Shown here piece after piece: positions 51,401 through 63,793 of a DNA stretch of 64,000 bases. The notes below the pieces were generated by a model. That model had not been told where the DNA came from. It searched no databases and worked only from the letters and a program-made list of their open reading frames with translations. How positions within the stretch are numbered: the first letter of the stretch is position 1; every line of letters starts with the position of its first letter. The position numbers were made by a program, and so were the translations under genes. This stretch comes from Mastigias papua (taxonomy: Eukaryota; Cnidaria; Scyphozoa; Rhizostomeae; Mastigiidae). The stretch is from the NCBI GenBank assembly GCA_964019165.1, contig OZ025282.1:6474131-6538130 (forward strand). Direction: 5' to 3'.

Positions 51401-54400
51401 TTAATCATTGATTCGATGATCATTTGTTTGATTCAGTTTTTATTGAGACATCCATGCATTTATTCATTAATTGATCTATTCTTGTACTGAAATGATTAAT
51501 TGATAAATTAATTAATTGATTGTTAGAGTGATTGGTTGATTTTGCTCATTAGATCATTTCATCTATTTCATAACCATTTGTTGATATAAATCATACATTA
51601 TTCTTTCTTAATCGTTCAACTGCAACATTCATTCACTACTTCCTTCCCCTATCGAGTTCTTTGACACTATATGAATCATTTGCACTAACTCGGTCATTTC
51701 CAGTTTGCGTATTTGAGAATTCAAATAAAGCAATAGTGACATCCATCAATACCTGAAATATCAACGTTTCATCCATACTTAACACCTGTTGCGCAATAAT
51801 TGACGTCTCACATTGTCCTTCATTTATGCATTACATCCTATTGATACGGTTACGACATATCATTTTCGTCTATCTTTATAACCATATATTTACTGATAGA
51901 ATGTCTGGACTTCTCATTTCAGCCTTAGTTTAAGACACTATTATCTTGTGATAGAGTTGGCCTTGGGTACTTCTTGCTGGTGCTCAGGCTTGCAATCCTC
52001 AAGCGACAACGGCGCTCTCTATCGTCGGTCATAATAGAGTGAAGATGAAAACGAATGCATTTCATCTATATTTGTATCTATGCTCAGACACCAACATTGG
52101 TGCACAGGCTTGCACTTGCTGAAGCACACGCACACACGCACACACGCACACACGCACATGCACACATGCTTACACGCTACGTGCACGTGCACATATGCAC
52201 GTATGCACTCTTCCATACAGGCACTCTTCCATACACGCACATGCACTCATCCACACACCTGCACACCTCCACATACACGTACATGCACGTATGCACGCGC
52301 ACGTAAAGGTACACACGCACACGAATGCTAAAGCACGAACGCACATACGCTCATAAACTATACATGTACTCATCGATATTATCATACAGCTAATTGTCTC
52401 AACATTTAAATAGGATAATGGAATGGTATTCATCTCAAATCTGTTGGTGGATAGTCGTCCGTGTGAATCTGTCGAGCCAATGGCTATGCCGTTTATTGCA
52501 GATGGAGAGGCTTCTATGGAATTCTCTGCTCCCATGAGTGGTTCATCTGGTGAGACCTGTTTCATAGTATAGAGTGTAGCTAGGTTCCAAAACGATAGTG
52601 CAGTGAGGACAGACTTTCCTATAAGTCTTGTGGAATAATTTGTAAGACATCATCTAAGTTATATTTAATTACCCCCGTCCGATGACATTAGTTTTTGGAT
52701 TCTGGGCTTTAGTTCAGATGAGAGTAAGGGTGTTTCTGGTAACTTTCGCCGAAGCCGTCAGAGGATTGTCAACCACTATGCTGGATTTTATTCTTGTAAC
52801 AAACGGTATCGTGAAATTTGGAGGTGTAAAGTTGGATTTAGAGAAGCAAAGTTGGGGGTTGAGTTTCGAATCAGAGCCGACAAGTCATCTGCAGATTTTA
52901 TTATTCCACCTTTGTGTTAAGATTTACCATAAAATGCTTTCTCTGTATTCTTTTCATGGAGTAATATTGTGCTGAATACCATTTGCTGTGACTTGTCCAG
53001 AGGTCGATGAGTTTGTTGAAGAATTTTGCTAGTATTGCATGCATAGTTTTTCGGGTTTCGCAGCTGCTTGAAAGCTTAGAGCCTTCTTTGCACTCTGCTT
53101 GGAGCCTCTATTAAACATTCTTAGTGCTCTCTTTCGGCCTTTTGGAACTTTAGTAGGCTTCTTATGGCCTCCATAGAGCCTTCAGATAGACGTGTGGGCA
53201 CATCCTTAACGGCTTCTTGGACCTTCCTAGAGAGTTTTTGACTGGATCCTTAGAGTTTATTTGGTTGATTAAGCTGTTCTGTTAGTTTAGTTTTTTTCAA
53301 AGCTCCCGTGCATGAGTGAGTATGTTGCTATAGTAGGATGATATTGCTTTCTGTAGATTTTGTTGCAATTAATTGCGGGTTTGGCTTCCACAATGGCGAT
53401 TGACTGAAGTTGATACTCGTTGGATCTTGCCGGTACTACCTGTGAGTGCTGCCAATTTATTACCAACTACCAATTCCGTAACTGACACGCGATGCTCAAA
53501 AGACAGAAATTTTAGGGCTATTGTCAAAAATAGGGAAATATGTGTTTGCTTCAGCCACTTCATGTTGACCGAGCCCATCTATACCGTCTTATGGCTCCAA
53601 GCATGGACTCTTGTGGCCATCTTGTTTACGCTGTTTTACCACAAAATTGCACCGTTAGGAACTCCCTAGGGTGACATTGCCGTTTGAATTTTTAAGCAGT
53701 TCATACATTGATAGATTTTGTCCTTTCTTTTTTTCTGCTTTTAATATGAGATAATACGTGATCCACTTTTCAAGTGCTGGATGGTTTCCAGCCATCAATG
53801 AAAAGTTCACTTAATATCTGTGACTGTTTGAATCCTTAGCTGGCGAAGAAAGTTTTGAATCATTGAAAATTGATCACCATTGTCATTTTATTATTTATCT
53901 CCTCTAACACATCCACCCCATTCACGCTGATGATGGATCCTTCTAATATCCGAAGCCTTCGTATAATTTTCTTCTATCGGTTTAGTGAGTCACTTTAACT
54001 GGATCGTCTTTGTTGCGATGCGAAGATGCGACTTCTCCGTAGAAGGCGAAATTCTTTGACCTCTTCCACGTTCTTATACTATGATTTGTTCTACGTAGTA
54101 TCTATATGCATATTCCATTACATCCACGTTACCTTAAGACATTGCACGCGCTCTCTCCCCTGATAGTTAAATTCTTTCATGATTCTTTTTCGGGAAACGA
54201 TAGCATGTAATAGGTAAGGCATTGTGCTGTTCCATTCCCAAGCTGCTGGTTGTTTGTCTTCAATAAGAACACAAGTACACGTTCCTTTATCAGTGTAAAC
54301 CAGGGCAAGCGCAAGTCAAATAAACATACAACATCCTATATCCAATTGAATGCTCTTCAATATACTCGAGTTTGTTGCATCCTAAATCGATTGTTTCAAT

Positions 54401-63793: not shown

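Follow-up and report, generated by a model that had tools for sequence, protein, structure and literature searches.

Six tandem bait-region exons, predicted to be used one at a time, in an A2M gene of the jellyfish Mastigias papua

Introduction

Alternative bait-region exons are already known. According to a report on Biomphalaria glabrata (PMC7016707), BgTEP2 carries 12 mutually exclusive tandem exons over 30 kb that encode a bait-like region, and variants were detected in transcriptomes. The same source gives eight predicted forms of BgCD109, four of them in transcriptomes, and three forms of BgA2M. As cited there, the same region is encoded by six mutually exclusive exons in scallop CfTEP (Zhang 2009), and differs among five isoforms of Drosophila TEP2 and six variants of shrimp A2M-2. 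An earlier note on the present DNA had called the principle established from Drosophila TEP2 and the scallop protein, which agrees with these citations. Bait-region splice variants have also been reported for the A2M of the tick Ornithodoros moubata (Saravanan 2003). In the accessible text of a 2026 review of A2M (PMC12939704), the terms "alternative splicing" and "mutually exclusive" do not occur, and "splice variants" occurs once, in the references.

Here we describe six such exons in a gene (gene 1) of the scyphozoan Mastigias papua. The window is a stretch of 64,000 nucleotides (contig C20, 6474131-6538130; window position p corresponds to C20 position p + 6474130). We added C20:6538131-6618130 and C14:15790001-15840000, and also searched the genome (a 347-Mb assembly of 172 contigs); positions past the window end are given as extended window positions. 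Our preferred reading, which the sequence makes highly probable, is that gene 1 encodes a secreted A2M whose linker end and protease-accessible bait half are supplied by a single exon chosen from six in tandem. The anatomy, the phases and the reading-frame logic are directly established.

In contrast to the mollusc BgTEP2, the array packs six exons into about 11.4 kb of an A2M gene, and a conserved head forms the N-terminal part of each cassette. CfTEP, TEP2 and shrimp A2M-2 vary in the same bait region in other phyla; the comparison covers the region and the number of forms. The tick protein is, like ours, an A2M with bait-region variants, but from an arthropod. What is notable here is the place in the animal tree, the true A2M, the N-terminal head and the arginine-rich cassette D. 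The array may be undescribed, as the earlier note had supposed: no report of a bait-exon array in Cnidaria was present among the matches listed, in a literature search that left subscription journals mostly outside. A bait-exon array outside Bilateria means that the trick is very old or arose repeatedly. One gene with six measurable baits would be a compact system for asking to what extent the bait sequence determines protease specificity, and also whether antibody-less animals adjust such repertoires according to tissue or challenge.

Anatomy of the bait cassette array

The six cassettes are located on the forward strand. Cassette A (52414-52549, 136 nt) has an acidic tail without Lys or Arg (pI 4.1), and cassette B (55331-55493, 163 nt) a neutral tail of 37 residues. 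The tail of cassette C (58531-58690, 160 nt), which has a relative in the tandem paralogue, is acidic, with nine Asp/Glu and no Lys or Arg, whereas that of cassette D (60219-60375, 157 nt) contains 16 Lys/Arg among 35 residues, including the furin-like RRRRF. Cassette E (61633-61786, 154 nt) has an acidic tail with proline, and cassette F (63655-63793, 139 nt) a basic tail rich in aromatics. These coordinates and lengths, together with the phases and the shared head, agree with those proposed from the window alone.

All six lengths leave a remainder of one when divided by three, AG directly precedes each cassette, and all enter in phase 0. The top-scoring GT donor within the open frame, scored with a hand-made donor matrix, gave a phase 1 exit in 6/6 cassettes. 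Runner-up donors came close to the best in E (phase 2, 8.1 versus 8.6) and D (phase 0, 6.1 versus 7.4); those of F were also in phase 1 (6.4 and 6.0 versus 6.6), and the use of either of two in-frame phase-1 donors in F, at 63710 and 63746, could make this cassette shorter. The introns around and between the cassettes measure 1309, 2781, 3037, 1528, 1257, 1868 and 1410 bases. A CA-rich degenerate repeat (52101-52354) lies directly 5' of cassette A. We also observed a 27-nt inverted repeat in the D-E intron (60672-60698 and 60807-60833, 89% complementary) and one of 24 nt (62517-62540 and 63786-63809, 79% complementary), the second arm of which overlaps the donor of cassette F.

Seven of the 17 head residues are invariant among the six cassettes (D1, G3, F6, D13, R15, P16 and C17), and any two heads share 8-13 residues. 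Across all 15 pairs, second codon positions are identical at 14-16 of 17 codons and third positions at 3-12 of 17, which indicates that the head is conserved as protein. Leave-one-out head profiles, run over six frames of 194 kb, recovered the omitted cassette in every case (6/6; E 4.8e-10 to 1.7e-6), and their top match beyond the array was the cassette of the tandem paralogue. The tails (28-37 residues) had been called unrelated, and we found nothing against this: none of the 15 pairs exceeded shuffles at p < 0.02, the best being C-E at an uncorrected 0.025. Their pI ranges from 4.1 to 12.0, and cassette D alone contains an R-x-K/R-R motif. Such divergent chemistry is as expected of baits for different proteases.

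The earlier note counted "at least six" cassettes. Six are detectable, and F seems to be the last of them, since neither the head pattern, the head HMM nor the DNA profile indicated a seventh intact cassette before the common exon. In the 144 kb of C20, these searches returned nothing below E 0.01 beyond the six and one paralogue cassette; the DNA added past position 64000 thus left the number at six. A genome search with cassette C found four places, C, A, B and E, all in this array, and missed D, F and the paralogue. A weak head-like stretch at 55015-55060 follows an AG and then runs into a stop (protein profile E 0.01-0.09; not detected by the DNA profile), and may be a decayed seventh cassette.

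This remnant would suit a reading in which tandem exon duplication produced no true six-way repertoire, so that one or two cassettes dominate and the others are spares under birth-and-death turnover, and the tandem paralogue, which retains a single recognisable cassette, points the same way. We regard this as unlikely, because in every cassette the seven invariant head residues are present, the splice sites are intact, the tail is open and the phases match those of the others, and because second codon positions of the heads are conserved and third positions are not.

Reading frame of gene 1

The constitutive exons encoding MG1-MG5 (37688..49080, forward strand) were placed by tblastn of the Rhopilema protein P0001, Pfam, conservation in the paralogue and a splice-site scan. 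The MG1 exon (37688-37851; Pfam MG1 above cut-off) and the MG1/MG2 exon (39396-39588) are accompanied on the same strand by exons near 40183, 41877, 42884, 43131, 43772, 45034, 45320, 48235 and 48599, and by two with both ends placed (46926-47153 and 48983-49080). Pfam MG2 and MG4 pieces in upstream ORFs were below cut-off. Several of these borders are uncertain, and the exon set starts at MG1, the signal-peptide exon not having been located. The gene also spans a repetitive stretch with several open frames (44061-44502).

Closer to the array, also on the forward strand, exon 49271..49723 encodes a P/T-rich insert and part of A2M_BRD (Pfam 5.4e-9 on the ORF); it exits in phase 0 and is open when joined. 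The MG6 exon (50295..50444, phase 0/0), likewise A2M_BRD, aligns within human A2M chain positions 521-634. The linker exon directly 5' of the array (50970..51104) ends with SQKAFN, also present in P0001, in phase 0. On the 3' side, the first common exon lies on the forward strand at extended 65204-65339 (L009:1204-1339; C20:6539334-6539469). The two bases after its acceptor, GG, complete a codon, and a phase-1 donor is therefore required. This exon offered a test of the phase predicted from the cassettes, and it does enter in phase 1. The DNA past the window also contained the thioester exon, which begins 4.1 kb beyond the window end.

We joined exon 49271, the MG6 and linker exons, every ordered subset of cassettes and the 18 downstream exons. 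Only six of the 64 subsets (the empty one included) remained open to the natural stop, and these were precisely the single cassettes, with 1060-1069 residues each. In the other 58, skipping included, the frame closes near the array, at residues 304-337 of the joined segment. By sequence logic, the frame by itself requires one cassette, as had been claimed. The accompanying statement that two or three cassettes break the frame needs a supplement: each of the 15 ordered pairs runs into a stop, and four cassettes in series restore the downstream frame by length, yet stops occur inside.

In the preferred reading, one cassette would be spliced into each transcript, and a wrong combination or the lack of a cassette would lead to a premature stop and degradation. 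The premature stops in 58/64 subsets, skipping among them, could also be taken as the purpose of the array, the cassettes then being mainly a poison-exon/NMD dial of expression level; we consider this very improbable, as it does not account for conserved heads that are followed by six different open tails.

As to how a single cassette is chosen, the introns between cassettes (1.26-3.04 kb) are too long for steric interference to enforce exclusivity, and all cassette sites are GT-AG, with no sign of a U2/U12 clash. We also searched for Dscam-like docking/selector RNA, taking as selectors the final 700 nt of each of the five introns that precede B-F, and the flanking introns only as docking sites. 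In this crude test, the best windows on either side lay within the spread of 15 shuffles: the real worst-of-five energy was reached by two of the 15 on the 5' side and four on the 3' side, and the sum by six and eight, respectively. These observations count against the preferred reading; with crowding and a U2/U12 clash unsupported, and no docking signal in this test, the explanation left is frame and NMD, with splicing factors presumably choosing.

Protein class and place of the cassette

The joined isoform C, from MG5 to the C-terminus, contains A2M_BRD (PF07703), A2M (PF00207), TED_complement (PF07678) and A2M_recep (PF07677), in this order and all above the Pfam cut-off, and gene 1 has a canonical GCGEQ thioester, MPYGCGEQNMLNFAPN. 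The best solved relatives were human A2M (553 bits), A2ML1 (524), CD109 (439), Anopheles TEP1 (288) and C3 (240). By these scores and the C-terminus, without a tree, the product is A2M proper, not CD109 or an insect-type TEP. The earlier assignment to the macroglobulin/TEP family is thereby narrowed to A2M, and the Pfam domains and the human A2M alignment described below confirm the bait-region position.

Other labels were considered. CD109 was rejected as the model ends with YDYYDTDLKATKMYKVTPAQCAGIATPNP and a stop, without a hydrophobic GPI tail (by eye), in a frame supported by the paralogue. An insect-type TEP does not agree with a C-terminal exon that has one cysteine and no cysteine stretch, nor with the score of 288 for TEP1 versus 553 for A2M. 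Complement C3/C4 was dismissed since neither anaphylatoxin nor C345C appeared in the Pfam scan of the joined MG5 to C-terminus (E up to 0.01).

Human A2M aligns to query residue 216 and resumes at 321. The cassette, at residues 247-299 of isoform C and with its head unaligned there, and the beginning of the constant exon therefore belong to the linker/bait gap. In an alignment by eye, mammalian A2M (P0018) has DMGLKVLTNAQVQKPNLC where gene 1 has the head. In human A2ML1 (PMC9156758), linker and bait together make up a single insertion within MG6, with the C-terminal end of the bait threaded through a channel. Gene 1 would fit the same model of insert, channel and His-type thioester, except that the bait described there for A2ML1 is single. 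By analogy, the head would be the end of the linker, a fixed structural lead-in, and the tail the exposed variable bait; the constant exon would provide the threaded K/R/P-rich bait end, followed by FRETWLW.

The earlier note proposed at least six traps of different protease specificity, and in the preferred reading each isoform would be cut by its own protease set. The tails differ strongly, from 16/35 Lys/Arg in D to none in A and C. The constant exon, PNPVFRGKDNKKPQPKPKKPVRKPPRKQIRSDF, nevertheless gives basic cleavage sites to every isoform, and with this K/R-rich bait end in common the case for six separate specificities is weaker.

The thioester-specificity residue of gene 1 is His (LHHKAMKGG), like that of human A2ML1; human A2M has LLNNAIKGG, and other cnidarian proteins have H, N or S at this position. 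After bait cleavage, the thioester of gene 1 would couple to the attacker. The same residue leads to another proposal, that cassette choice sets the proteases that activate an opsonin, in a complement-like tagging of surfaces, and not those that are trapped. With a His nearby, the thioester can react with both hydroxyls and amines (PMC9156758), and a study in which peptides matched BgTEP2 suggests that this protein binds the S. mansoni tegument directly or indirectly (PMC7016707). Yet A2ML1, with its His, inhibits proteases (PMC9156758), and gene 1 has an A2M-like C-terminus, with neither C345C nor anaphylatoxin in the Pfam scan. We hold the opsonin proposal as a tentative possibility; it is compatible with the trap.

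Cnidarian relatives

The top protein match, an alpha-1-macroglobulin-like protein (isoform X3, P0001) from Rhopilema esculentum, is 62% identical over the whole query. It was followed by a gene model of another species (P0002, 59%) and then by hydrozoan proteins (40-45%); P0001 and the second species' model are 62% identical to each other. P0001 and P0044 share with gene 1 an identical SQKAFN|DxG... junction. The protein database was clustered at 90%, which hides Rhopilema isoforms other than X3. Isoform-numbered names (Rhopilema X3, Hydractinia X4, Hydra X3) suggest that automatic annotation may hold such isoforms.

Two paired gene models of that other species contain heads in series, two in P0044 (gene9949) and five in P0002 (gene9950), one of them truncated at the model start, giving seven in total. 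Most simply, these are an array mis-joined by the gene predictor, and such arrays are probably present in at least two species of the lineage. Multiple heads in two jellyfish-like species bear on the question of an old versus a repeated origin. With the exception of P0002, the cnidarian matches with the bait region printed (P0013 was not covered) showed one head per protein. P0007, P0008 and P0049, with one head each, come from contigs that exceed their reading frame by little and are probably transcripts of other species; P0009 and P0011 have more diverged heads. One-to-one orthology of cassettes by their tails was not established: the highest z among 54 comparisons, uncorrected, was 4.1 (C versus a 15-residue P0002 tail), followed by 3.8 and 3.6 for A and D versus the first and second tails of P0044, respectively.

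A furin-type R-x-K/R-R site was present in 12 of the 19 cnidarian or cnidarian-like relatives that could be examined by script, and in 11 of those 12 it lies in the linker, 45-54 residues after an AVDKS-type motif. It is absent from the gene 1 linker, from Rhopilema and from six others of the 19. Splicing might then switch the type of molecule, five cassettes giving single-chain traps and D a furin-nicked, C3-like two-chain or pre-activated form, although we find this quite doubtful. If D is nicked, the array would let an old jellyfish immune gene switch between trap and opsonin, with the site made optional in the bait.

Tandem paralogue and third thioester gene

A genome search for the TED family gave 11 matches at three loci, namely gene 1, a tandem A2M paralogue and one gene on C14. 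The paralogue extends from 87993 to about 131650 (C20:6562123 to about 6605780; L011-L015). Its single recognisable cassette (110678-110801) enters in phase 0 and leaves in phase 1, and that the paralogue manages with one counts against the preferred reading of gene 1. The DNA match of this cassette to C covers the acceptor and the head and ends at the head/tail border. The thioester-specificity residue of the paralogue is Asn (LHNKAMKGG), compared to His in gene 1.

Between gene 1 and the paralogue, dN was 0.006-0.058 in five MG6, CUB and TED exons, 0.16 in the common exon, 0.19 in the head of C and 0.46 in the linker exon. Toward the bait side, dS rises as well, from 0.085-0.32 to 0.5-1.2, and dN/dS stayed below 1 throughout the nine comparisons. 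We did not adopt positive selection on the bait as an explanation because dS climbs with dN, so an age difference or gene conversion can account for the pattern. The 3' exons are close to those of gene 1, with dS of 0.085-0.16 in four CUB/TED exons versus 0.5-1.2 on the bait side, which suggests that gene conversion has acted on the 3' half. An array with spacings in multiples of 107 bases lies 3' of the paralogue (end of L015 and L016, extended about 132327-143027) and repeats a short open stretch, AIALV[VF]CSNMTKFEID.

The third thioester gene, with matches at C14:15812188 and C14:15822896 (L019, L020), contains LPTGCGEQTM and a single head-like exon, NAGLAVITDS. In the Pfam scan, one late ORF of this gene was without an A2M-family domain. 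Near it, at C14:15790791-15795384 (L017), we noted by eye a long gag-pol-like ORF of a retroelement.
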